A stretch of 53,453 nucleotides of DNA from Bacteroidales bacterium (GCA_003559475.1 PWLF01000193.1:1-53453), one strand, 5' to 3'; positions 6,843-42,538 are shown, counted from the stretch's first letter. Program-made: numbers and translations. Notes: generated by a model not told the origin, from the letters alone.

Positions 6843-7661
6843 TTATTCCTTTATTTTATGCATATATTTTCTGACGTCAAAACTAAAAGTTCTATCTACA
6901 ACCCACTGATTTAAATTGTTATCTATTTCAAAAAATCTTATATTGTCATTATTTAAAACTCCAATAACGCCCGGCTCGAATGGAATAATGGCCTCATAAT
7001 CATCTTCCATTTTCAAAACTATATCATTTTCGAAAATCCATTCTCCTTCATTATTTAAAAAATAGAATCCAATTTTGTTATCAAAAGCTATACCCATTTG
7101 CATATCTCCAATTGCAAAATATTCTTCAACTCCTTCCGGTACATTAAATAAGATATTTTCCATTTTTTGCCACTTACCATCACCTCCTAAATGATAAAAG
7201 GAGACAATGCCATCATTTTCAATACCAACGATACCCATATCATAAGTCATTTTCATAACAGTCAGCTTGTCAAATTTTTCAGGTAAAACAAGCATCATCC
7301 TGCTTTCTTTTGCCCACTGAAATTGACGATCAATATAGTAGAAATCAACAACATTGTCGTGAACAGCTCCCACATAACCCATTCCCAATCCAATAATACC
7401 GTCTAATCCTTCAGGTAAAATAAACTGTGATGCTCTGTCTAATTTCCATGTACGGTCACTTGAATAATAAAAAATGTGAAGCTTGTTTTCGCGAATCAAC
7501 CCAATTGTCCCTTGACCCGGAGTAATAATCTTATGAGCTTTTTCATTATGCTTTTGCTCAATGTTAATATTTGAAGGGGTGTCATCTTTACAAGAAATTA
7601 ATATTGTAAAAATAAATAGAACAAAAATTAAACCCTTAATAAAAAATACTTTGTTTGTCAT
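6843..7661 (-). CDS. Putative lipoprotein with degenerate propeller-like repeats
   Basis: 272 aa; signal ending FTILISC (lipobox-like); about five repeats of the pattern G-hydrophobic-G...FYYxD..W...P. Confidence 0.65.
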   Translation of the reverse strand: MTNKVFFIKGLIFVLFIFTILISCKDDTPSNINIEQKHNEKAHKIITPGQGTIGLIRENKLHIFYYSSDRTWKLDRASQFILPEGLDGIIGLGMGYVGAVHDNVVDFYYIDRQFQWAKESRMMLVLPEKFDKLTVMKMTYDMGIVGIENDGIVSFYHLGGDGKWQKMENILFNVPEGVEEYFAIGDMQMGIAFDNKIGFYFLNNEGEWIFENDIVLKMEDDYEAIIPFEPGVIGVLNNDNIRFFEIDNNLNQWVVDRTFSFDVRKYMHKIKE

Positions 7662-7995
7662 TTTAATATTTATATGATTATGGAGTTAAATAAAGAATAT
7701 TCAAAATATTTTGCAAAAATAGCAGAAATATTTTTTTAGTCAAAATAAACTTCTTGATTTATATGACGGTAATATTTAATAACCATAGCATAGCTTTTTT
7801 TATAATATCCTAATTCCGAGTTGAAATTAAACTACCTCCATAATTTTTTCATTGCTTGTGGGCGTTAGTTCTAATAAAAATGTAGTTGCTAAAAAAACAC
7901 TAATAATAATCGCTTAAAAAAGTTTTTAACAAATAAATAAGCTGTCAATTGCTTGATTTTTTTAATTTTGCATATTACTAACAAAATAAAATATT

Positions 7996-12679: not shown

Positions 12680-15600
12680 ATGAAAAGAAAAAATTACAAA
12701 CTAAAAAATTTACTGCTACTTACATTAGCAAATATGTTAATGATTACATCAATTATTTCACAAGCTCCCGCAAAAATGAGCTATCAGGCTGTGATTAGAG
12801 ATAATTCAGATAATCTTATTACTGAACAAGAGATTGGTGTGCAAATTAGTATTTTGCAAGGTTCTGAAGTTGGGACAGCAGTTTTTGTTGAAACTCATAC
12901 TGCTACAACTAATAAAAACGGTTTGGTGACTCTTATGATTGGTGATGGAACTGTTCAGCAAGGTGAACTAGAAAATATAGATTGGCAGGATGGTCCTTAT
13001 GTTATAAAAACAGAGACTGATGTTGACGGAGGAACTAATTATACTATTACAAGTTCAAGTATGTTGCAGAGTGTTCCTTATGCTATGCATTCAACAACAG
13101 CAGAAATCTTAACAGGTGAGATAACAGAAATAGATCCGCTTTTTAATGCAAGCCCTGCAGCTGATATCGAAACCACAGATATTGACAATTGGAATGAAGC
13201 TCATGGCTGGGGCGACCATTCAACAGAAGGGTACTTGACAGACTATGTTGTTACAGAAGAAGATGTTACTCAACATGAAGATGCTCTTAGTATTACTGAA
13301 AGCCAAATTTCTGATTTGCAAAATTATCTTACTTCGGACGATTATCAGGACTTACACCTTGATGATGGTACAGGTATTTTAACAATTACTCATTTAACAG
13401 ATCCAACAGAAATTAATCTTACTCCTTTTCTTGGTGAAAATACTGATAACCAGCAGTTATCTATTGATGGCAATGAGTTAAGTATTGAAAGAGGAAATAC
13501 TGTTACACTTCCTGATGAGACAGATCCTTTATTCACAGCATCGCCAGCTTCAGGAATAGAAACAGAGGATATTGATAATTGGGATGAAGCTCATGGCTGG
13601 GGTGACCACTCAACAGAAGGATATTTGACAGAATATGATGAGACAGATCCTTTATTCACAGCATCGCCTGCTTCAGGAATAGAAACAGAGGATATTGATA
13701 ACTGGGATGAAGCTCATGGTTGGGGCGATCATTCAACAGAAGGATATTTGACAGAATATGATGAGACGGATCCTTTATTCACGGCATCGCCTGCTTCAGG
13801 AATAGAAACAGAGGATATTGATAACTGGGATGAAGCTCATGGTTGGGGCGATCATTCAACAGAAGGATATTTGACAGAATATGATGAGACAGACCCTTTG
13901 TTCACAGCATCGCCTGCTTCAGGAATTGAAACAGAAGATATTGATGACTGGAATATGGCATACAGTTGGGGAGATCATTCAGCACAAGGATATATAACAG
14001 ATTATGTTGTTACAGAAGGAGATGTTACTCAACATGAAGCTGCTATTAACATAACAGAAAGTCAAATTACTGATTTGCAGGATTATTTATTGGATATAAC
14101 GGATGAAGATATAGATGATTTAAATAATGTGAATATTTTTGATATTGAACATGGAGAGATTCTTGTATATGACGAATCAGAGAGTGAGTGGATTAATGCT
14201 TTATTATCTGATAAAGAAACGGACCCTTTGTTTACTGCATGGGATAGGTCAGAAGGTATTGAGATAACTGAAAGTCAAATCACTGACTTAGAGGATTATT
14301 ATTTAGCTTCTAACCCACAAAACTATATTACCAATTTAGATGAAACTGATCCTGTATTTTCAGCATCACCTGCTGCCGGTATTGAAGCAGCTCATATTAG
14401 TATCTGGAATCTTGCTTACAGTTGGGGCGACCATTCAGAAGAAGGATATATAACAGATTATGTTGTTACAGAAGGAGATGTTACTCAACATGAAGCTGCT
14501 ATTAACATAACTGAAAGTCAAATCACCGACTTTGGAACTTATTATTTAGCTTCTAACCCTGCGGGATATATTTCAAATGCAGAAGAGACTGACCCTCTTT
14601 TTAGTGCATCTGCTGCAGCAGGAATTATAGCTGCTGATATAGATAACTGGAATGATGCTTATGATTGGGGAGATCATTCAGCAGAGGGATATCTTACCGG
14701 TTTTACCGAAGCTGACCCCACGTGGTCAGGAGCTCCCAATTTAGTTGGAAGTATTGGTAGAATGGGAGATGTTGGTATTGGAACCGATGACCCTCAAGCT
14801 AAACTGGAAGTAAGGGATAATGATGCTCTTATACATGGTATTACTGTTGGTAGAGGAAGTGGGGATGATGACAGGAATACTGTTTTTGGAAATCAAGCTT
14901 TGGCAGATAATACGTCAGGAAATAACATTGTTGCGATAGGTCTTAATGCACTTAATAGGAATATAGATGGTGATATGAATACTGCAATTGGAGCTAGTGC
15001 ATTAGCTTTAAATGAAACTTCCAATTATAATACAGCTGTTGGTTATGCTGCTTTATATTATAATGTTTCAGGTACAGGTAATAATACTGCTGTTGGTAAT
15101 CGTGCTTTGAAGTTTAATCTATCAGGATCTAATAATACAGCCGTTGGTTATCATGCTCTTAGAAATAGTCTTGGTTTTCAAAATGTTGCTATTGGAAGCT
15201 ATGCTATGGATGAAGGTACAGGTAATTATGCTACAGCCGTTGGCTATCAATCGCTTGAGCGAGTTTCGGGAGCTTATAATTCCGCTTTTGGACATCGTGC
15301 TCTTCAAAATACTACTTCAGGAGAACATAATACAGCCGCTGGTCACAGAGCTCTTGCAGATAATACTACCGGTCAAGGAAACACTTCAGTTGGCTATGCC
15401 TCCGGAGTAAATAACAATGATATGGTAAATACTACATTTGTTGGTAAATGGGCTTATGCAGTTGATGCAGCAGGGATATCTAATTCGGGTTCCTTCGGAT
15501 ATAACTCCAGGGTGAATGCCAGTAATCAATTAAGATTTGGAAATTCTTCTGTTAATGATATTGGAGGCCATGCCGCATGGTCAAATCTTTCTGATGAAAG

Positions 15601-16045
15601 GTTTAAAAATAATGTTAGAGATGATGTAGCCGGTCTTGATTTTATTATGAAATTACGCCCTGTAACATACAACTTGGATGCTCATAAGCTTGCAGGTTTT
15701 CTTCAGGAAGATAGAAAAATTGATGAAGATGGAAATGTTCTTTACGAAAAGAGTCAAGTTGATATAAAAGCTAGAGATGAAAAATCTGCTGTTACACAAA
15801 CAGGATTTATTGCTCAGCAAGTTGAGAAAGCTGCAAATGAGGCAGGTTTTGATTTTAGCGGTATTGTTAAGCCTGAAAATGAAAAAAGTCATTATAGCTT
15901 AAGATATTCTGAATTTGTTGTACCAATGGTTAAAGCTATGCAAGAACAGCAAGCTATAATTGAACAACAACAGCAACAAATTAATGACTTGCAAAGACAA
16001 GTTAATGAAATGAGGACAAATAGTCAATTTGAATCAAGTAACTAA
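12680..16045 (+). CDS. Secreted tail-fibre-like protein with tandem repeats and C-terminal S74 intramolecular chaperone domain
   Basis: 1121 aa; repeated ETDPLFTASPASGIETEDIDNWDEAHGWGDHSTEGYLTEYD, repeated NTAVGYxAL motifs, C-terminal NLSDERFKNNVRDDVAGLDFIMKLRPVTYN...GFIAQQVE typical of Peptidase_S74, then coiled coil. Confidence 0.9.
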   Translation: MKRKNYKLKNLLLLTLANMLMITSIISQAPAKMSYQAVIRDNSDNLITEQEIGVQISILQGSEVGTAVFVETHTATTNKNGLVTLMIGDGTVQQGELENIDWQDGPYVIKTETDVDGGTNYTITSSSMLQSVPYAMHSTTAEILTGEITEIDPLFNASPAADIETTDIDNWNEAHGWGDHSTEGYLTDYVVTEEDVTQHEDALSITESQISDLQNYLTSDDYQDLHLDDGTGILTITHLTDPTEINLTPFLGENTDNQQLSIDGNELSIERGNTVTLPDETDPLFTASPASGIETEDIDNWDEAHGWGDHSTEGYLTEYDETDPLFTASPASGIETEDIDNWDEAHGWGDHSTEGYLTEYDETDPLFTASPASGIETEDIDNWDEAHGWGDHSTEGYLTEYDETDPLFTASPASGIETEDIDDWNMAYSWGDHSAQGYITDYVVTEGDVTQHEAAINITESQITDLQDYLLDITDEDIDDLNNVNIFDIEHGEILVYDESESEWINALLSDKETDPLFTAWDRSEGIEITESQITDLEDYYLASNPQNYITNLDETDPVFSASPAAGIEAAHISIWNLAYSWGDHSEEGYITDYVVTEGDVTQHEAAINITESQITDFGTYYLASNPAGYISNAEETDPLFSASAAAGIIAADIDNWNDAYDWGDHSAEGYLTGFTEADPTWSGAPNLVGSIGRMGDVGIGTDDPQAKLEVRDNDALIHGITVGRGSGDDDRNTVFGNQALADNTSGNNIVAIGLNALNRNIDGDMNTAIGASALALNETSNYNTAVGYAALYYNVSGTGNNTAVGNRALKFNLSGSNNTAVGYHALRNSLGFQNVAIGSYAMDEGTGNYATAVGYQSLERVSGAYNSAFGHRALQNTTSGEHNTAAGHRALADNTTGQGNTSVGYASGVNNNDMVNTTFVGKWAYAVDAAGISNSGSFGYNSRVNASNQLRFGNSSVNDIGGHAAWSNLSDERFKNNVRDDVAGLDFIMKLRPVTYNLDAHKLAGFLQEDRKIDEDGNVLYEKSQVDIKARDEKSAVTQTGFIAQQVEKAANEAGFDFSGIVKPENEKSHYSLRYSEFVVPMVKAMQEQQAIIEQQQQQINDLQRQVNEMRTNSQFESSN
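13514..14005 (+). repeat. Four tandem 123-bp (41-aa) repeat units in the S74 protein gene; the fourth is diverged in its 3' half
   Basis: Units start GATGAGAC at 13514, 13637, 13760 and 13883, exactly 123 bp apart; diverged copies of the same peptide lie upstream near 13130 and downstream near 14340 and 14590. Confidence 0.93.
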
Positions 16046-16093: not shown

Positions 16094-19000
16094 ATGAGAA
16101 GATTTAAAGTATTTTTATCCGTTTTTTTATTACTTTTTGCAATTAATGCACAATCTAATGATGAAGTAATAAAGTTAACTTTTAGTGCAACTTATGATGG
16201 AGAATGGACTCCTTTGGACAGGGTTTTACTGGAAAACTTGTCCCAAGGGGGAGAATATACCATTTTTTATCCCGATACAGTAATGGAATTGCCGACTCAT
16301 ACCGGTATTGGAGATATTCATGGAGAATATAAAAATCTGTATGTGTCGCAAAACTATCCAAACCCTTTCTCAAAAAAAACAAATATTAATGTGGGAGTGG
16401 TTGAGAAAGATGATTTTACAATTAATATTTATGACGTTGCAGGTAGAGAATTAGCAACTTATGAAGTAGAATTAGAACCGAATCTTCATAATTTCACATT
16501 TTATGCTTGTAGTGAGCAGATGTATATATTAACTGTAAAATCTAAAAAACACCTGGAAAAACAATTGATGATACAAACAGGTCCGGGTGGAGATAATTCA
16601 AAGATTGTTTATAACGGAACTGTCGCGAGAACAGAAAGCGGAGAACAATCATCAAAGACTTTCCCTTTCAAACCCGGAGATGTTTTAAGATTTACCGGAT
16701 ATAAAGGAGAGCAAAGTGAAGAGAAAGTTGACACACCAAATAAAGATACTGAATATACTTTTAAATTTAAGAGTTGTGAGCCTAATGCTCCTGTTGCAAA
16801 AGTTGCTTCAGATATTCAGGGTGATTCGTTTAAGGCAAACTGGAATTCTGTAACTGCTGACCCTGCTGTTACCAAGTATCTCCTTGATGTATCAGAGGAT
16901 GATGACTTTAGTACCTATATCTATGAACAAGAAGATGTTGGAAATAATACAGAATATACAGTTTCAGGATTGGATACTGAAACAGAATATTATTACAGAG
17001 TTTATGCTGTAAATAATTGCGGGGAATCAAAATCTTCAAATGTTATTTCTGTTATGACAACAACAGGATGTGTAAAGCCTGATGCTCCTGTTGCTACAGC
17101 CGCAACAAATATTGAAGGTCTTGAGTTTACGGCAAATTGGGATGCAGTAACTTCTGATCCTGCAGTTACTCATTATTTATTAGATGTTTCAGAAGATAGT
17201 GATTTTAGTACTTTTATTCTTGAAAAAGAGAATGTGGGTGATGTTACAGACTATGTCGTAACAGGACTAACTACTGATACTGAATATTTTTACAGAGTAT
17301 TTGCAGTAAATAGTTGTGGACAGTCAGATGCATCAAATGAAATTTCAGTTACGACTATATGTCCGCTACCTGATGCACCTGTTGCTACAGAAGCTACATA
17401 TGTTGATGAAACTGAGTTTACGGCAAATTGGGATGCAGTAATATCTCTTCCCGCTGTTACTCATTACTTATTGGATGTTTCAGAAGATAGTGATTTTAGT
17501 ACTTATGTGCTTGAAAAAGAAGACGTTGGTGATGTTACAGAGTATGAGTTAACAGACTTGGATGAAGAAACTCAGTATTTCTATAGAGTCTTTGCAGTTA
17601 ATGAATGTGGTCAGTCTGATGCATCAAATGTTATTGATGTTGAAACAGCAGTATGTCCTACTCCTGATGAAGCTCCTATTGCTGATCCGGCTACGGATGT
17701 TAATGCTGATCAGTTTAAAGCAAACTGGCAAGAAGTGACTTTTGACCCTGAAATAACAAGCTATCTTATAGATGTTTCAACAGAAAGTGATTTTAGTAGC
17801 TATATTTATGAAAAAGAAAATGTCGGAGATGTTACTGAATATATTGTAACAGGATTAGATGCAGGCACTGAGTATTTTTATAGAGTATATGCTTTTAATA
17901 TGTGTGGAGAGTCTGATCCGTCTAATGAGATATCAGTTACTACAACATGCCCTGTGCCATCTGCTGTAAATGTAAAAGATGCTTCAGATATCGGCGTAGA
18001 TGAGTTTAGAGCAAACTGGCTTGCTGTAACTTCAAGTCCTGAAGTAACTCATTACTTATTAGATGTTTCATTAGAAGAAGATTTTGGTTCTTATGTTTAT
18101 GAAAATGTAAATGTTGGAAATAATACAGAATATCTTGTTGACGGACTAGATGCCGGGACGGAGTATTATTACAGAGTTTTTGCTGTTAACTCTTGTGGAG
18201 TATCAGATCCTTCAAAAGGTGTTTCTGTTGAAACTGTATGTCCTGTTCCGGGACAGCCTGTTGCTACAGATGCTACAGATATAGAAAATGATAGATTTAC
18301 GGCAAACTGGGAAGATGTTACTGCAGACCCGGCTGTAACACACTATTTATTGGATGTTACTACTGATAGTGAATTTGATGTATATAACAGAATTAATGTA
18401 GGAGATAATACAGAATATGTTGTTGAAGGACTAGATATCGGGACTGATTATTTTTACAGGGTTTTTGCTGTAAATAGTTGCGGGACATCTAAACCTTCAA
18501 TAGTTGTTGATGTTACTACTTTATGTGATGTTGTGCCTGATGCTCCTGTTGCACAAGATGCTACGGACATCGGAGCTGTTTCTTTTGTGGCAAACTGGGA
18601 TGCTGTAGTTTCTGTACCGGAAGTAACCGGTTATAATTTAAGAGTTAGGGAAGTCAAAGGTGGTACACCAACTATAGTATTTAACCAAAATGTAGGAAAT
18701 GTTACAGAATATAAAGTTGGGGATTTAAACCCGGATACTGATTATATTTATATTGTTATAGCAATTAACCCATGTGGTACATCTGATATATCAAATGAAA
18801 TAGATGTAACTACTTTGTGTCCTGAGCCGGATGCTCCTACTGCCAATGAAGCCGGAAAAATCGAAGCTACTTCTTTTGTGGCAAACTGGGATGCTGTAGT
18901 TTCTGTACCGGAAGTAACCGATTATAATTTAGTAGTTGTAAAAAATCCTAATGGAGTTCCTACACAAGTATTTAATTCCGATGTAGGGGATGTTACACAA

Positions 19001-20047
19001 TATGAAGTTGAGGATTTAGAACCGGGTACTGAATATGGATATATTGTAAGAGCAATTAACTCATGTGGTAACTCTACTTTTTCAGACCCGGAAATACTTG
19101 TAACTACTTTATGCCCTACTCCTGATGAACCAACAGCTAACCCTGCTTCTAATATCGAGTATAACTCATTTGTGGCAAACTGGGATGCAGTAGTTTCTGA
19201 ACCGGAAGTAACCGATTATAATTTAAGAGTTATAGAAGACCCTAATGGGACTCCTAAACAAATATTTAATTCCAATGTAGGGAATGTTACAGAATATATA
19301 GTTGATGGTTTAGATCCGGATACTGAATATGCATATGTTGTAAGAGCAATTAATCCATGTGGTAACTCTTCTTTTTCAAACCCGGAGATATATGTAACTA
19401 CTTTGGAAGATCCTTGTAATGATCCCTCCAGTGGAGATATAACTTTTACTTATAATGGCGAGGAAGTCACTTATGGTATAGTTAGAAGCGGTAACAGATG
19501 CTGGCTTGATAGAAACCTGGGAGCTTCACAAGTTGCAACAGCAATAGATGATGAAGATGCTTACGGAGATCTTTTCCAGTGGGGTAGAGAAGATGATGGT
19601 CATCAAGAAAGAGATTCTGATGAGACCTCTACTTTAGCTGATTCTGACCAGCCCGGTCATGATGAATTTATTAAAGCTGTTGATCATCCTAATGATTGGC
19701 GTGAAGGTAATAATGATAACAGATGGAATGCTGATCCTATGGTTAATAACCCTTGCCCTCTTAGCTGGGCTGTTCCTAGTGTAGAAGATTGGAATTATGA
19801 AGTGGACAGGTGGAGCAGTAATGATAGTGAAGGTGCTTTTAATTCACCTCTTAAACTAACAGCCGGAGGTTATCGTGGGGTTTTAGGTTCTGTTTCAGGT
19901 GAAGGAACATCAGGGGCTTACTGGAGTAGCTCAGTTTTGTCAACAGCATCTAATCGTTTATATTTTGATGATGATAGCTCTAATACTAATTCACAACATC
20001 GTGTACGTGGTTCTTCAGTTCGTTGTATTATGGATAAAAAGAAATAA
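16094..20047 (+). CDS. Secreted multi-fibronectin-type-III protein with C-terminal FISUMP (Fibrobacter succinogenes major paralogous) domain
   Basis: 1317 aa; signal peptide; nine repeats of the form PDAPVAT.AT.IE...F.ANWDAV...P.VTHYLLDVS...EY.V.GL...TEYFYRVFAVNSCG.S..S; C-terminus CWLDRNLGASQVA...WAVPSVEDW...LTAGGYR...GAYWSSS...RVRGSSVRCIMD. Confidence 0.88.
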   Translation: MRRFKVFLSVFLLLFAINAQSNDEVIKLTFSATYDGEWTPLDRVLLENLSQGGEYTIFYPDTVMELPTHTGIGDIHGEYKNLYVSQNYPNPFSKKTNINVGVVEKDDFTINIYDVAGRELATYEVELEPNLHNFTFYACSEQMYILTVKSKKHLEKQLMIQTGPGGDNSKIVYNGTVARTESGEQSSKTFPFKPGDVLRFTGYKGEQSEEKVDTPNKDTEYTFKFKSCEPNAPVAKVASDIQGDSFKANWNSVTADPAVTKYLLDVSEDDDFSTYIYEQEDVGNNTEYTVSGLDTETEYYYRVYAVNNCGESKSSNVISVMTTTGCVKPDAPVATAATNIEGLEFTANWDAVTSDPAVTHYLLDVSEDSDFSTFILEKENVGDVTDYVVTGLTTDTEYFYRVFAVNSCGQSDASNEISVTTICPLPDAPVATEATYVDETEFTANWDAVISLPAVTHYLLDVSEDSDFSTYVLEKEDVGDVTEYELTDLDEETQYFYRVFAVNECGQSDASNVIDVETAVCPTPDEAPIADPATDVNADQFKANWQEVTFDPEITSYLIDVSTESDFSSYIYEKENVGDVTEYIVTGLDAGTEYFYRVYAFNMCGESDPSNEISVTTTCPVPSAVNVKDASDIGVDEFRANWLAVTSSPEVTHYLLDVSLEEDFGSYVYENVNVGNNTEYLVDGLDAGTEYYYRVFAVNSCGVSDPSKGVSVETVCPVPGQPVATDATDIENDRFTANWEDVTADPAVTHYLLDVTTDSEFDVYNRINVGDNTEYVVEGLDIGTDYFYRVFAVNSCGTSKPSIVVDVTTLCDVVPDAPVAQDATDIGAVSFVANWDAVVSVPEVTGYNLRVREVKGGTPTIVFNQNVGNVTEYKVGDLNPDTDYIYIVIAINPCGTSDISNEIDVTTLCPEPDAPTANEAGKIEATSFVANWDAVVSVPEVTDYNLVVVKNPNGVPTQVFNSDVGDVTQYEVEDLEPGTEYGYIVRAINSCGNSTFSDPEILVTTLCPTPDEPTANPASNIEYNSFVANWDAVVSEPEVTDYNLRVIEDPNGTPKQIFNSNVGNVTEYIVDGLDPDTEYAYVVRAINPCGNSSFSNPEIYVTTLEDPCNDPSSGDITFTYNGEEVTYGIVRSGNRCWLDRNLGASQVATAIDDEDAYGDLFQWGREDDGHQERDSDETSTLADSDQPGHDEFIKAVDHPNDWREGNNDNRWNADPMVNNPCPLSWAVPSVEDWNYEVDRWSSNDSEGAFNSPLKLTAGGYRGVLGSVSGEGTSGAYWSSSVLSTASNRLYFDDDSSNTNSQHRVRGSSVRCIMDKKK
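16775..19410 (+). repeat. Array of nine FN3-type repeats within the 16094-20047 CDS
   Basis: Nine copies of the F.ANWDAV / T.Y.YRV.A.N.CG peptide pattern; the last three (YNLRV type) form a sub-family with about 50-bp exact DNA identity between copies 7 and 8. Confidence 0.88.
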
Positions 20048-35248: not shown

Positions 35249-38200
35249 ATGCGATTATTTAAAAGTAAGCAAAAAAAATTTATTTTGGTTTTTTTTATAA
35301 AAGCTTTACTACTACTTTATAATACAGTTATATCCTCGCCTCCCCCACCTAATGTTGTAGAACAGACTATTCAGGTTTTTTGTGGAGAAAATGCTGAGTT
35401 TGAAATAGACAACCAGGACCCTGATTATATTTATTTTTGGTTTTCTGATTCCGAAGGAGAAGAACAGGTAGGATTAGGTGAAATTTTTGAAACTTCGGTT
35501 TTAACTTCAAATACAAGCTATTGGGTTGGAGCTGCTGAAGGAGAGATAATATCTGAAGAATTTACATTTACCAATTGTGATGCTACCGGTCGTTTTGGGC
35601 CTGATCAAAGTGCTGTAGATTCAGAATACAATGGGACTAATTTGGAAGGAGATGTTACGGTTATTGGAGATGGAATACAGGAATGGATTGTTCCAAAAAC
35701 AGCTACATATACTATTACTACTTATGGAGCAGGTGCAGGATATATAAACGAACAAAAAGGAGCAAAAATATCCGGCGAATTTGAATTAGAAGAGGGGGAT
35801 ACTTTAAGAATTTTAGTTGGACAAGTTGGCTTAGGAGGTGATACTGATGATGACGGTCGCTTTTGTGGTTCTGGGATGACAGCTGTTGCTAAATATCAAG
35901 AGAACGATGATGACATTCCTTTAATAGTAGCAGGAGGAGCCGGTGGAGTATCAGACGGAAGTATATCATCCCCTGTACAATCTTTTGGTATAGCAACAGA
36001 AACAGCAAATAGTGGAACTTCAGGAGGAAATCCTGATAATTCGGAAGGAACAGATGGTAATGCAGGTAGAAGCGGAAGTACAGGTACATGGGCACATCCG
36101 GGTTCAGGATTTTATGAGTCGGAAACAGTTGGTACTGATGGGGATAGATCTCAGTCATTTATTGATGGTGGTGTAGGTGCTTCCGGAGATAATAATGCCG
36201 AAGGAGGTTTTGGAGGAGGAGGAGTTGGAAGACATAATCAAAGAATAGGAGGAGGTGGCGGTTATTCCGGCGGTGGCTCGGGTGGAAACTCAAATAATGA
36301 TGTTGGAGGAGGTGGGGGCTCCTATAATTCAGGAAAAAATCAAACTAATAAATCGGGATACCATCAAGGAAATGGTTTAGTTGTTATTTCTTTAGAAGTT
36401 CCGGAAGTTGGAGAATTAAGTGATTTAACTCAAGTAGATGTGGAAATTGAAGAATTAAGTATTCCGGATGTTTCTGAATTAAACCCTGATATTTACTGTG
36501 GGACGTCAATAACTTTATCCGCCTCAGGAAGTTCTTCCAACTATGTATGGTATAACGATGAAGATGATATAGTTGGCACAGGAGAAAATTTTACTACTCC
36601 AAGTCTAACCGAAAATACTACTTATTATGTCGAAGCAGTTGATACTGAACCGGAAAATGTGGTTTTAGAGTTTACCAATTGTAAAGCAACAGGCAGAACA
36701 GGTCCTTCTCAAGCAGACTGTGATTTTGAATATTTGGGAACAAATCTTGAAGGAAAGGTTAATATAACCGGTTATGGAATTCAACAGTGGGTTGTTCCTT
36801 ATACTGCAACATATACTATTGAAGCTTATGGGGCTCAGGGAGGGTCCGGAATAAGAGGAGGTATTGGTGGAAAAGGAGCAAAAATGTCCGGCGAGTTTGA
36901 ACTTGAAAAAGGGCAAAAATTAGATATTTTAGTTGGTCAACAAGGTCGAGGGGGGTATTCAAATCAAGTAGGTGGTGGCGGTGGTACTTTTGTAGTTATG
37001 AGTAATGCTATTTATGAGGAAGATATTTTAATAATTGCCGGTGGTGGTGGGGGTTATGGTGTAGGAACAACTACTGTTAATCAGGATAAAGCGTATGGTT
37101 CGGTTGATGTCAATGCAAAAGATGGGGTTGGCGGAGAGTCCTGGGGTGCGGGAGGTGTTGATGGAAATGGTGGAGATGCTGCAGACTCAAGAGGTTCCGG
37201 TGGAGGAGGGTTTTTTAGTGATGGAGAAGATGGCTCCGGAAACGGTGGGAGGGGTGTTTCTTATATAAAAGGAGGACTAGGAGGGCATGGTAATACTGTT
37301 GATGGTGGATTTGGTGGTGGTGGAGCTACAGATGAAAATACCGGATGGGGTGCAGCTAGTGGTGGTGGTGGTTATACCGGTGGTGGTGGTGGATACTCTG
37401 ATAGTGAAGATGATGAAGCTGCCGGAGGAGGAGGTGGTTCATTTAACTCAGGAATAAATCAAAATAATGAAGAAGGTGTTAAAACCGGTCATGGATTAGT
37501 AGTTATATCTTACTCTGTTGAACCTCAATGTGCTTCAGATAGAGCCCCAATAAATATAACAGTAGAAGAAATAGATACACCGGAAATAGTTGACCCAAAT
37601 CCCATTATATCTTGTGGAGGTAAAGCCACATTATCTGCATCAGGTAGTACAGGAGAATATGTATGGTATAACGATGAAGATGAAATTGTCGGTATAGGAG
37701 AAAACTTTACTACTTCAATCCTGACAGAAAATACAACTTATTATGTTGCGGCTGTTAATAGCGAACCTGCGAATAGTATTTGGCGATTTACAAATTGTAG
37801 AAAAGAAGGAAGATTAGGTCCTACTCAAGAAGATGCAGATAATGAATATGAAGGAACTAACCTAGAGGGAGAAGTCACAATAATTGGTGATGGCATTCAA
37901 CAATGGACTGTTCCCAAAACAGCTACTTACACAATTGAAGCTTATGGTGCACAAGGAGGTGCAGGGACGAGAGGTGGTATTGGAGGTAAAGGAGCAAAAA
38001 TGTCAGGTGATTTTGAACTTCAAGAAGGCGAAGTTATTGAAATCCTTGTTGGTCAACAAGGTGACGGTGGATATTCTCAAGAAATAGCAGGAGGTGGTGG
38101 TTCTTTTGTAGTAATGGGAAATGCCAGTAATAAGTCAGATATTTTGATTATAGCAGGTGGTGGAGGTGGTTATGGTGTTGGAACAACTACTATTCATCAG

Positions 38201-41200
38201 GATGTAGCACATGCGACAATAAATGATAATGCAAAAAACGGAATTGGAGGTACCTCTTTGGGTATAGGAGGAGTTGATGGAGCCGGCGGCGGAGATGCTG
38301 AATCTAGAGGTTCAGGAGGTGGTGGATTTATAAGTGATGGTGCTGACGGTTCAGGAAATGGTGGTGGCGGTAAATCATTTTTAAATGGCGGACAAGGAGG
38401 AGTGGGTAACACTGTTGATGGTGGATTTGGTGGTGGTGGAGCTACAGATGAAAATACCGGATGGGGTGCTGCAAGTGGTGGCGGTGGTTATTCAGGAGGT
38501 GGTGGAGGATACTCTGATAGTGATGATAATGAAGCAGCCGGAGGTGGAGGTAGCTCATATAACTCTGGTGCTAATCAAAATAATCAAGCCGGTGTTAGAG
38601 AAGGGCATGGATTGGTTATTATATCCTCAATAGTTGAAAAAAAATGTGCTTCTGATAAAGTCCCCATAAATATTACAGTAGAAGAACTAATCTCTCCGGA
38701 TGTTACAGAATCAGATCCCATTATTTCTTGTGGTTCATCCATAACACTAAACGCTTCAGGAAGCACAAATAATTATGTATGGTTTAATGAGAATGATGAA
38801 ATAATAGGTTATGGTAATAGCTTTACTACTCCCAGACTTAAAAATGACACAATATATAAGGTTGCTGCTATTGATTTTCAAACTGAAGTAATAGAATATG
38901 AATTTACAAATTGTGGAGTAGAAGGTAGATTTGGTCCTTTTCAATCAAATGTTAATTCTGAGTATTCAGGAACAAACCTTGAAGGAAATGTGACCGTGGT
39001 TGGATACGGAATTCAGAAGTGGGAAGTTCCTTATTCAGCAACATACAATATTCAAGCTTATGGTGCACAAGGAGGTGTTGGCCCTAGAAGTGGAATAGGA
39101 GGTAAAGGAGCAAAAATATCAGGTTATTTTGATCTTGAAAAAGGTGATGTATTAGAAATCTTAGTTGGTCAAAAAGGAGGTGGTAGTGATATTGATACAT
39201 TAGAAATTGGCGGTGGAGGAGGATCTTTTGTAGTAATGGAAAATGCCAGCTCAGAAGCCGATATTTTAATTATAGCCGGAGGAGGTGGTGGTTATGGTGT
39301 AGGAACATCTACTAATCAACAAAATATAGCTCATGCTACAACAGAAAACAATGCAAAAGATGGTTTTGGCGGTAATTCATGGGGTACGGGAGGAGTTGAT
39401 GGAAGTGGTGGAAATGCTGCAAATTCAAGAGGTTCAGGAGGTGGAGGATTTTTTACTGATGGTGAAGATGGCTCGGGAAATGGAGGTAGAGGAAGATCTT
39501 ATCTAAATGGTGGTGTTGGCGGAAGAGGATATAGTCTAGATGGCGGCTTTGGTGGAGGAGGAGCTACAGATGAAGCTACATCATCCTTTGGTGCTGCCGG
39601 CGGTGGTGGCGGATACTCCGGTGGAGGTGGAGGATATTCTTCTAGTAGTTCTAACGAAGCTGCAGGAGGAGGAGGAGGTTCTTTTAACTCAGGTTTTAAT
39701 CAAAATAATGAAGAAGCATACATTGAAGATAGACATGGACGAGTTATCATATCTTATGAGAGAGAATTTTTATGCTTATCAGAAAAGGTGTCGATTAATA
39801 TCACTATTGATGATATGGAAAGCCCAAATATAAACGAAACAAACCCTGCTATCTCATGTGGAGGAATTACTACTTTAACTGCCTCGGGAAGTACAGGATA
39901 TTATCTGTGGTATGATGAAGTAAACGAAATAGTTGGGACAGAAGACAGTTTTAATACTCCTGTTCTTACAGAAAATACAGATTATCAGCTTGAAGCTATT
40001 GATATTGAAAGTGAAGAGATAGAGTATGTATTCACAAATTGCGGAGTTGAAGGAAGAACAGGTCCTTCTCAATTAGACTGTGATACTGAATATTCAGGGA
40101 CAAATATTGAATCAGAAGTTACAATAAATAGTGATGGCATTCAGGAATGGGAAATACCCGAAACAGGAGTATATACTTTTACTGCATACGGTGCAAGAGG
40201 TGGAGGAAAAGATATAAATGTGGGAAGGCATGGTTATGGAGCAATTATACAAGCTGATTTTGAATTAAATAAAGGAGATGAAATACTGATTTTAGTTGGA
40301 CAAAAAGGTTCTGATTATTCAGATGAAAATGGTAATGCAGGTGGTGGAGGAACTTTTATAGTAAAAGTTGACCCACAAGGAGATTATTTTATGGATGATA
40401 ATAGTTACTTGGGTTTAAAAGTTACACCATTGTTAGTTGCCGGAGGAGGTGGCGGAGCATTTAATGATAATCCTATTGCTGATAACGATGGTCAAACAGA
40501 TAGTTATAGTGAATATCTCGGAGAGTGGACTGATCAAGGTGGATTTCATTGGGGAGCTACAGGTTCCGGGGAAGGTGCCGGAGGTGGATTTTCCGGAACC
40601 GGCGAAGAAGATGGCTCTGAACCCACAGGAGGAGGGAGTTTCTTAAATGGATATAAAGGAGACAGAAATTACGGAATTGGTGGATATTATCTGGAAGAGT
40701 CTTCAGATTATGGAGGTTTTGGCGGTGGTGGCGGTTATGGTATATTTAATTACGGATCAGGAGGAGGAGGATTCAGAGGTGGTGATTTTTGTCCATACAA
40801 TAGTAACACATGTAAGAGTGGTGGAGGAAGTTATATTCATAAAAGTGCAATATCAGCCGCTACTTCAGACGGTAATTTTAATACTACTAATTCCGACGGC
40901 TTTGATGTCTATGATGGTCCTGTTGATAACTTGAATGAATATAATGAAGATGATCATGGAATGGTTATAGTAACTTATGCTATAGAACCTATATGTTTCT
41001 CTGATAGAGATTTCGTAACGGTAGAAGTAGAATTTGACTACTATCAAACACTATCTTCCGGAGATTGGGATAATGAAAGTACATGGGAGGAGTGTTGTAT
41101 GACAACATGCAACCCGGCTGAGTCATCTCCCTTATCTTTATTTGACAGAGATATCTCTATAAGAGACGGGCATGTGATTGATATTGATGGCGATTGGACA

Positions 41201-42538
41201 AACAATGCAGATATCATTAAAGAACAGGATAGCGAAATAAATATTACCGGCAACTGGATTAATCAAGGAACTGTTGATACTGAATTAGGAGGAGTGTTTA
41301 GATTTAGTGGTTCTTCCCATCAAACTATTGACCCCGGCGACAGTGATTTTAATGATATTATATTTGAGAACACTACTGGGTTATGTGGAGATTTAGAAAT
41401 AACCTCTCCAATGGTAATAAACGGCAATGCAGATTTTGATGACGGAGTTGTCTATTTCTCTGATACTGGATCATTATTATTTACAGAAGATGCTACATCA
41501 AACGAAGGCTCTGAAGATAGCTTTGTTGACGGTGAAGTTGAAAAAGAAGGAACAGACGCTTTTGTTTTTCCTATAGGAGAAAGTTGCATTTATGCACCTT
41601 TAGGTATTTCTGAAGCATCAGGTGGAGACCAGGGCGAGTCATTTACTGCAAGGTATTATCATATAGATCCTGATCTAGCCGGACTTGATGTGACAAGCAA
41701 AGAAGCGTCAATTAATAATGTTTCCAGAATGGAATACTGGATTCTTGATAGATCTGACGGAGGAACAAATGAGGTTCAGGTAACCTTAAGCTGGGAGGAT
41801 TCTAGAAGCGGAGGCATTGGAAATCTTAATGACCTAATAGTTGCCCGCTGGGATGATACTCAATGGAATGATAAAGGACAGTCATCAATAACCGGTGATA
41901 TTATGTCAGGCACAATTACCTCAAACTTTATAAGTGATTTTAGCCCGTTTACTCTTAGCTCCGAATCATGGGATAATCCTCTTCCAATCGAACTTCTGAG
42001 CTTTGAAGCAGAATGCGATAAAGATGGGAATGCTTTAATAACCTGGGAAACAGCTACTGAGATAAATAATGACTATTTCATATTGGAAAAATCCAAAGAC
42101 GGAAAAGATTTTACAGAGATAGCTATGATTGAAGGTCAGGGTTATAGCAACAGAATTGTGGAGTATTCATATATTGATGAACACTTGTTTTTCGGAGATA
42201 ATTATTACAGATTAAAACAAGTAGATTTTGACGGTACAACAACAGAATATAACATAATTCACATAAATTGTGATAAAAAATCAGATGAAGCAAAATCAGT
42301 AGTTTACCCAAATCCTTTCAGGTCGGAAATAATTATATATCTTGAGAATATTGAAGATAATCATGTATATTTTGAGATATATAGCGAAACAGGTAGTTTA
42401 ATAACTCGCAAGAGATACGGTATTGAAAGAGATTCTGATAGCTATGTGTTTGAACTTGATGATCTAGAACCCTCAGCATACTTGCTTAGAATAATCTCAG
42501 ACAGGCATTTGTTTAATCATAAGATAATAAAGAATTAA
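35249..42538 (+). CDS. Giant secreted protein: Ig-like domains alternating with five ALK/LTK-type glycine-rich domains, T9SS type A C-terminal sorting domain
   Basis: 2429 aa; five copies of FTNCxxxGRxGPxQ...GTNLE...GIQxWxVPxTATYTIxAYGAQGG...GxFELxxGxxLxILVGQxG...GGGGSFVVM...DILIIAGGGGGYG; CGxxxTLxASGSTxxYVWYND Ig-like linkers; C-terminal VVYPNPFRSEIIIYLEN...LLRIISDRHLFNHKIIKN. Confidence 0.9.
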   Translation: MRLFKSKQKKFILVFFIKALLLLYNTVISSPPPPNVVEQTIQVFCGENAEFEIDNQDPDYIYFWFSDSEGEEQVGLGEIFETSVLTSNTSYWVGAAEGEIISEEFTFTNCDATGRFGPDQSAVDSEYNGTNLEGDVTVIGDGIQEWIVPKTATYTITTYGAGAGYINEQKGAKISGEFELEEGDTLRILVGQVGLGGDTDDDGRFCGSGMTAVAKYQENDDDIPLIVAGGAGGVSDGSISSPVQSFGIATETANSGTSGGNPDNSEGTDGNAGRSGSTGTWAHPGSGFYESETVGTDGDRSQSFIDGGVGASGDNNAEGGFGGGGVGRHNQRIGGGGGYSGGGSGGNSNNDVGGGGGSYNSGKNQTNKSGYHQGNGLVVISLEVPEVGELSDLTQVDVEIEELSIPDVSELNPDIYCGTSITLSASGSSSNYVWYNDEDDIVGTGENFTTPSLTENTTYYVEAVDTEPENVVLEFTNCKATGRTGPSQADCDFEYLGTNLEGKVNITGYGIQQWVVPYTATYTIEAYGAQGGSGIRGGIGGKGAKMSGEFELEKGQKLDILVGQQGRGGYSNQVGGGGGTFVVMSNAIYEEDILIIAGGGGGYGVGTTTVNQDKAYGSVDVNAKDGVGGESWGAGGVDGNGGDAADSRGSGGGGFFSDGEDGSGNGGRGVSYIKGGLGGHGNTVDGGFGGGGATDENTGWGAASGGGGYTGGGGGYSDSEDDEAAGGGGGSFNSGINQNNEEGVKTGHGLVVISYSVEPQCASDRAPINITVEEIDTPEIVDPNPIISCGGKATLSASGSTGEYVWYNDEDEIVGIGENFTTSILTENTTYYVAAVNSEPANSIWRFTNCRKEGRLGPTQEDADNEYEGTNLEGEVTIIGDGIQQWTVPKTATYTIEAYGAQGGAGTRGGIGGKGAKMSGDFELQEGEVIEILVGQQGDGGYSQEIAGGGGSFVVMGNASNKSDILIIAGGGGGYGVGTTTIHQDVAHATINDNAKNGIGGTSLGIGGVDGAGGGDAESRGSGGGGFISDGADGSGNGGGGKSFLNGGQGGVGNTVDGGFGGGGATDENTGWGAASGGGGYSGGGGGYSDSDDNEAAGGGGSSYNSGANQNNQAGVREGHGLVIISSIVEKKCASDKVPINITVEELISPDVTESDPIISCGSSITLNASGSTNNYVWFNENDEIIGYGNSFTTPRLKNDTIYKVAAIDFQTEVIEYEFTNCGVEGRFGPFQSNVNSEYSGTNLEGNVTVVGYGIQKWEVPYSATYNIQAYGAQGGVGPRSGIGGKGAKISGYFDLEKGDVLEILVGQKGGGSDIDTLEIGGGGGSFVVMENASSEADILIIAGGGGGYGVGTSTNQQNIAHATTENNAKDGFGGNSWGTGGVDGSGGNAANSRGSGGGGFFTDGEDGSGNGGRGRSYLNGGVGGRGYSLDGGFGGGGATDEATSSFGAAGGGGGYSGGGGGYSSSSSNEAAGGGGGSFNSGFNQNNEEAYIEDRHGRVIISYEREFLCLSEKVSINITIDDMESPNINETNPAISCGGITTLTASGSTGYYLWYDEVNEIVGTEDSFNTPVLTENTDYQLEAIDIESEEIEYVFTNCGVEGRTGPSQLDCDTEYSGTNIESEVTINSDGIQEWEIPETGVYTFTAYGARGGGKDINVGRHGYGAIIQADFELNKGDEILILVGQKGSDYSDENGNAGGGGTFIVKVDPQGDYFMDDNSYLGLKVTPLLVAGGGGGAFNDNPIADNDGQTDSYSEYLGEWTDQGGFHWGATGSGEGAGGGFSGTGEEDGSEPTGGGSFLNGYKGDRNYGIGGYYLEESSDYGGFGGGGGYGIFNYGSGGGGFRGGDFCPYNSNTCKSGGGSYIHKSAISAATSDGNFNTTNSDGFDVYDGPVDNLNEYNEDDHGMVIVTYAIEPICFSDRDFVTVEVEFDYYQTLSSGDWDNESTWEECCMTTCNPAESSPLSLFDRDISIRDGHVIDIDGDWTNNADIIKEQDSEINITGNWINQGTVDTELGGVFRFSGSSHQTIDPGDSDFNDIIFENTTGLCGDLEITSPMVINGNADFDDGVVYFSDTGSLLFTEDATSNEGSEDSFVDGEVEKEGTDAFVFPIGESCIYAPLGISEASGGDQGESFTARYYHIDPDLAGLDVTSKEASINNVSRMEYWILDRSDGGTNEVQVTLSWEDSRSGGIGNLNDLIVARWDDTQWNDKGQSSITGDIMSGTITSNFISDFSPFTLSSESWDNPLPIELLSFEAECDKDGNALITWETATEINNDYFILEKSKDGKDFTEIAMIEGQGYSNRIVEYSYIDEHLFFGDNYYRLKQVDFDGTTTEYNIIHINCDKKSDEAKSVVYPNPFRSEIIIYLENIEDNHVYFEIYSETGSLITRKRYGIERDSDSYVFELDDLEPSAYLLRIISDRHLFNHKIIKN
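35561..40990 (+). repeat. Five tandem glycine-rich modules (approximate starts 35561, 36664, 37781, 38897, 40025)
   Basis: Each module opens with an FTNC...GP.Q motif and ends with (G/R)HG.V(I/V)IS/T; modules 2 and 3 share an exact DNA run of about 59 bp. Confidence 0.9.

Follow-up and report, generated by a model that had tools for sequence, protein, structure and literature searches.

Described relatives of the domain

The closest structures described for the glycine-rich domain (GRD) treated here are the TG domain of human ALK and LTK (PDB 7n00, 7nx3 and 7nx0) and C. elegans SCD-2 (7lir). In 2010 a GRD was described that Trichomonas BspA proteins share with a Flavobacteria strain and with C. 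difficile and its phages (PMC2843621); it is probably of the same kind as the Pfam family PF12810 (ALK_LTK_GRD), which is also present in the fungus Drechmeria (PMC4859500). In the tail fibre gp24 of phage Pam3, host-receptor recognition has been assigned to a TNF-like plus glycine-rich region that resembles C. elegans ALK with an RMSD of 2.6 A (PMC9608196). With these reports and several named viral entries, the GRD family is already catalogued in outline in bacteria and phages, as an earlier note on the present DNA had thought possible for the bacterial homologues.

The window analysed here is a stretch of 53,453 nucleotides from a Bacteroidales bacterium (GCA_003559475.1, PWLF01000193.1:1-53453), in which that note had recognized an ALK-like protein. 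The observation is confirmed as real and correctly interpreted. What is striking at this locus is the five-copy architecture of a T9SS protein together with modules that are unusually ALK-like; ALK and LTK, in contrast, carry one GRD copy, and the predicted T9SS export is likewise a feature of the window protein.

Gene layout

A single uninterrupted ORF (35249-42538, + strand, 0 internal stops) encodes a protein of 2429 aa, in which PF12810 scores 83.6 bits against a curated cut-off of 24.5 and covers five stretches, and Ig_7 covers five stretches as well (Pfam). Together with the T9SS tail, these matches bear out both the five tandem ALK/LTK-type GRDs in one T9SS protein and the Ig-like linkers between them that had been read from the DNA. 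Modules are bounded by the FTNC motif and the G-V-I end strand, which gives the following layout.

35249..42538, + strand: whole gene, predicted exported multidomain surface protein (ORF, Pfam, NCBIfam)
35249..35350, end approximate, + strand: putative Sec signal region (MRLFKSKQKKFILVFFIKALLLLYNTVISSPPPP), judged by eye
35351..35566, + strand: Ig_7-type domain preceding module 1 (Pfam Ig_7; bounds by subtraction)
35567..36403, + strand: GRD module 1, divergent, one cap Cys
36404..36670, + strand: Ig_7-type linker 2, best Ig_7 stretch (aa 414-466; Pfam)
36671..37522, + strand: GRD module 2, two cap Cys, predicted ALK-type fold
37523..37786, + strand: Ig_7-type linker 3 (Pfam; bounds by subtraction)
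37787..38638, + strand: GRD module 3
38639..38902, + strand: Ig_7-type linker 4 (Pfam; bounds by subtraction)
38903..39766, + strand: GRD module 4
39767..40030, + strand: Ig_7-type linker 5 (Pfam; bounds by subtraction)
40031..40987, + strand: GRD module 5, two cap Cys, best Pfam stretch
40988..42300, + strand: C-terminal spacer, first part similar to the Saprospirales protein L004 (52% identity over 152 aa)
42302..42529, + strand: T9SS type A C-terminal sorting domain

The neighbours of the gene (RecA, ABC transporters, FecCD and a RapZ-like protein) are uninformative on its function.

Homology to ALK and LTK

The 2429-aa protein alone retrieved ALK from the PDB by phmmer at E 2.5e-16. The profile comparison proposed earlier gave a highly significant match when it was run with all five modules, as human ALK was found at E 1.1e-24 (90.9 bits, covering positions 1-279 of 284), LTK at E 2.9e-23 and SCD-2 at E 1.2e-4. 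The local score of ALK was 88.2 bits against -19.4 for reversed ALK and a maximum of 1.5 among 500 ALK shuffles; because the shuffles stay that low, composition is excluded, and the resemblance between the modules and ALK is, judged on sequence, homology. A low-complexity artefact is ruled out at the same level by these shuffles.

ALK reaches only 53.8 bits against its own Pfam model, fewer than the 90.9 bits against the five-module profile, and its alignment to PF12810 begins after the N-terminal cap, which therefore seems to lie outside that model. Since the cap, FTxC...G..GPxQ..C, is common to ALK and the modules (LTK reads FSTCGASGRHGPTQTQC and module 5 FTNCGVEGRTGPSQLDC), the window subfamily stands closer to ALK than the Pfam model does. 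Pfam-strong bacterial members of PF12810 (genome G228) differ from the window modules in being without the cap and in carrying a GGGATDIR-like segment. ALK has the same residue in 28 of the 33 non-glycine columns whose conservation reaches 80% or more across the cap-bearing prokaryotic rows, about six of the 33 falling in the cap that was itself the criterion for choosing the set. When 173 sampled prokaryotic and viral domains were scored pairwise, module 5 ranked 1st for LTK and modules 2-5 ranked 2nd-5th for ALK, a rank not being a phylogeny.

Predicted fold of module 2

Module 2 was modelled by AlphaFold2 without templates from a 14-row alignment (A2) of the module and 13 relatives, giving a pLDDT of 85.3 and a pTM of 0.89, the least confident part being the glycine region, with some blocks at 58-71. 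The structural check against the ALK/LTK GRD, also proposed in advance, was run on this model by Foldseek against the PDB and returned 21 matches with E <= 1e-3, all 21 of them ALK, LTK or SCD-2 (best E 2.1e-14, TM up to 0.73), with the next match at E 0.8. Neither this check nor the profile comparison refuted the earlier reading. The modules have landmark order and cap in common with the human and C. elegans domains, as module 2 has the predicted fold along its entire length, at structural-alignment identities of 26-30% to ALK/LTK and 19-20% to SCD-2. From the match to ALK, the glycine region would be expected to pack as a polyglycine-II bundle.

A two-module model from a three-row alignment (A3) was uninformative (pLDDT 44), so confidence in the fold hinges on the 14-row alignment. 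This disordered-looking model from a shallow alignment, and the glycine content of 23-30% in the modules, are what might be expected of a low-complexity look-alike, that is, a disordered or collagen-like glycine-rich protein unrelated to ALK; set against the shuffle control, the Foldseek result and the 28 non-glycine positions in common with ALK, such an explanation is scarcely credible.

Differences from the ALK receptors

No kinase domain was matched by Pfam in the window protein, no EGF-like domain follows the GRD as it does in ALK/LTK (Ig_7 domains were found there instead), and no transmembrane part was found, the C-terminus being the T9SS tail. The ALKAL contact residues of ALK (E859, Y966, E974 and E978) were followed through the alignment: the first two and E978 are not conserved in the modules, and at the E974 column module 3 alone has Glu. 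Membership of the ALK receptor family is rejected, as the protein is without a kinase, an EGF-like domain and conserved ALKAL contacts. A role as a signalling receptor for an ALKAL-like ligand in the bacterium is likewise disfavoured and very improbable, for although the predicted fold equals the ligand-binding part of ALK, it comes with a T9SS tail in place of transmembrane and kinase domains, and with those altered contact positions.

The five modules compared

Modules 2-4 are near-copies, apparently the outcome of later duplications (69-74% aa identity to module 2), while modules 1 and 5 are divergent, with 48% and 45% aa identity to module 2. The regularity of the array had been overstated in part: the strings GGGGSFVVM and DILIIAGGGGGYG, said to occur in every module, hold for modules 2-4 and fail in modules 1 and 5, and where modules 2 and 5 have the second cap cysteine, modules 1, 3 and 4 have Val or Ala.

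The dN/dS values between modules 2, 3 and 4 are 0.22-0.26, indicating purifying selection, and the copies are therefore maintained. Columns of the jelly-roll and G-rich stretches have low entropy and those of the intervening loops high entropy, with 2.3-2.8 bits for residues 133-156, 181-192, 217-228 and 241-252 of the module. The same pattern of conserved glycine stretches and variable loops has been reported for phage tail-fibre tips.

These data also bear on the main rival to a binding function, in which the product is a structural stalk, coat or biofilm-matrix protein whose GRDs are stiff spacers and whose loops bind nothing specifically. Tandem GRDs alternating with Ig domains and a high glycine content would suit such a protein, and relaxed constraint could also account for the variable loops; but the duplicated modules are under purifying selection, and the fold serves recognition in its phage (PMC9608196) and receptor (ALK) relatives. 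A structural role is accordingly judged a real but clearly less probable reading than that of an adhesin.

Relatives in phages

A scan of viral contigs with the A2 profile found 23 loci. The viral GRDs are mostly cap-bearing (FTTCGKTGRVGPTQ..., FTNASTTGYSGPS...) and are often C-terminal in proteins of ~350 aa or placed within large virion proteins; in one of them (L155) the GRD is fused to virion-structural, baseplate-wedge and tail-fibre families. Module 2 matches phrog_22713 at E 3.2e-36, and among named phage proteins the nearest is WJZ48558.1 (Actinomycetia phage DSL-LC01), which contains a GRD and is deposited as 'ALK tyrosine kinase receptor'. Foldseek against viral models gave 51 matches with E <= 1e-3, many of them from phages and several named 'receptor protein-tyrosine kinase'. 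Such names on phage proteins probably stem from the GRD alone and do not imply a kinase.

Phage proteins of this kind (phrog_22713, Pam3 gp24 and WJZ48558.1) are kin of the window modules in sequence or fold. They differ in that nearly all the phage GRD proteins encountered bear one module each, and in being anchored in the virion, whereas the window protein bears five and is predicted to be T9SS-exported.

Searches by tblastn with module 2 in named phages and plasmids, and with two viral GRDs in named phages, gave no match; the virion parts of one such viral GRD protein matched 179 records, and the null results are likely due to masking of glycine-rich sequence. Module 5 alone as the query found nothing in the viral contigs.

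Probable export by T9SS

The C-terminal tail reaches 23.2 bits against the TIGR04183 T9SS model (cut-off 23). For PF18962 the C-terminal part as query scored 28.0 bits against a cut-off of 27, the genome search gave 31.2, and the whole protein as query fell slightly below the cut-off (25.2 against 27). The genome encodes SprA (2653.5 bits) and has 81 matches to the T9SS tail family, which makes export to the surface or the medium likely, and the N-terminus resembles a Sec signal peptide by eye. The T9SS export proposed earlier is supported by the sorting domain, SprA and the 81 tail-family matches alike.

Spread in bacteria and archaea

The genome of the window (3.18 Mb, 93.8% complete) encodes one further GRD protein, likewise T9SS-tailed. 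None was found in the 46 other genomes of the family that were searched, and 62 of the 395 genomes sampled from the class (about 16%) have a GRD. The domain also occurs in two Woesearchaeota MAGs and one Myxococcales MAG, for which mis-binning is possible, although the two Woesearchaeota proteins are similar to each other around their GRDs. So scattered an occurrence suggests that the domain was transferred laterally or lost repeatedly. An empty site was sought in three congeners, none of which gave a clean one; the flank pairs DUF5687+ABC and FecCD+ABC were present, with different neighbours each time.

The protein L004 mentioned above, from a Saprospirales MAG (PWJP01000181.1), is like the window protein in its Ig_7/GRD array with at least four GRDs, on a contig cut at both ends, and in having the same C-terminal spacer, but unlike it in that some cap-bearing modules carry a GGGASDIR-like segment.

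Proposed function

The gene product is on balance probably a T9SS-exported, multivalent adhesin of the cell surface, built with ALK-fold GRDs. An adhesin was among the functions first proposed for it, and the proposal has gained support from the phage virion homologues and the Pam3 tail fibre (PMC9608196). It is the most parsimonious reading and is favoured because conserved glycine stems are combined with hypervariable loops and Pam3 gp24 offers a precedent. In such an adhesin, the protein would be secreted first by Sec and then moved over the outer membrane by a SprA-type T9SS via its C-terminal sorting domain, so that the five GRDs, joined by Ig-like linkers, would be displayed outside the cell. 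Each GRD would consist of an N-terminally capped TNF-like jelly roll bearing a polyglycine-II bundle, in which the conserved glycine stems may form a stiff framework and the variable loops between them a binding face, as in phage tail-fibre tips, and five copies would provide avidity.

Polyglycine-II ice-binding proteins exist, the snow-flea antifreeze protein being an example, and repetitive surfaces suit multivalent arrays, so the flat polyglycine-II face could instead bind to ice, to mineral or to repetitive polymers, polysaccharides among them. This alternative is considered unlikely, as homologues are found in phages and diverse bacteria and the nearest structural matches are ALK/LTK only.

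Origin of the domain

The GRD phylogeny that had been suggested was built with human ALK and LTK, taken from PDB sequences (the LTK row being partial), as the eukaryotic rows, and its outcome is mixed, since the placement of ALK shifts between runs and is stable neither way. In a quick tree ALK/LTK join the window and L004 modules, and in a careful tree they join domains of family f58, where their branch is long and the composition drew warnings. The AU test does not reject a constraint uniting ALK/LTK with the window and L004 modules (p-AU 0.316) or a window-only clade (p-AU 0.186); one well-supported node (100/98) places module 5 with L004, the modules of the two proteins being interleaved. 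As the position of ALK shifts between the trees and its branch is long, no direction of transfer can be claimed. That the cap-bearing prokaryotic (bacterial/phage) subfamily was the source of the animal ALK/LTK ligand-binding domain is held to be rather unlikely at present, though compatible with that constraint and with the high pairwise ranks of the window modules for ALK and LTK, and that the window protein is a relative informing the origin of the receptor domain, as the earlier note had it, is possible.

Full-length prokaryotic relatives of the ALK domain, including its cap, are documented here from bacteria and archaeal MAGs as well as from virion proteins of phages, and in one T9SS protein as an array of five. 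Two questions are thereby made testable, namely the origin of the animal receptor domain and whether recognition is the fundamental role of the ALK fold as a scaffold. If a cap-bearing prokaryotic GRD was indeed the source, a phage or bacterial recognition module would have been turned into the domain of an animal growth-factor receptor.

Cap cysteines

In the alignment of cap-bearing glycine-rich domains (GRDs), the first Cys of the N-terminal cap, at the position of ALK C688, is invariant, including in window modules 1, 3 and 4. Its disulphide partner in ALK is C701, and a Cys at that position is absent from the same three modules and from 26 of the 40 other cap-bearing domains. Most prokaryotic copies lack the C701-equivalent Cys yet retain that of C688.

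Other proteins of the window

12680-16045, + strand: 1121-aa protein, repeats and C-terminal Peptidase_S74
16094-20047, + strand: 1317-aa protein, FN3 repeats, T9SS-tail match and GNRCWLDRNLGA-type end

The 1121-aa product carries YadA-head-like NTAVGYxAL repeats and ends in a Peptidase_S74 intramolecular chaperone domain, and its gene contains a 123-bp DNA repeat (13513-14006, four copies, 92% match). It is a further adhesin-like surface protein. The 1317-aa product has nine FN3 repeats and is closed by the GNRCWLDRNLGA-type domain, with its T9SS-tail match at aa 88-159, near the N-terminus rather than the C-terminus; the gene is possibly a fusion.

GRDs in other loci

G000:C185 (L110:3-4532): second GRD protein of the window's genome, one module and a T9SS tail
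G228:C1:1953000-1992000 (L111 and L112): GRD gene cluster, at least six lipoprotein-like genes
L005:6001-6849: cap-bearing ALK-type GRD, Woesearchaeota MAG
L007:5707-6498 and 7153-7977: cap-bearing ALK-type GRDs, Woesearchaeota MAG

In the careful tree, the sister of the C185 GRD is a domain from genome G133 (100/99), not the window modules. The clustered GRDs of G228, a genome of the window's order, are of the GGGATDIR type without the cap. The archaeal GRDs sit within very large surface proteins. Among viral contigs, at least two GRD genes adjoin within each of L152, L154, L159 and L169, which suggests that phage tail regions contain GRD cassettes.
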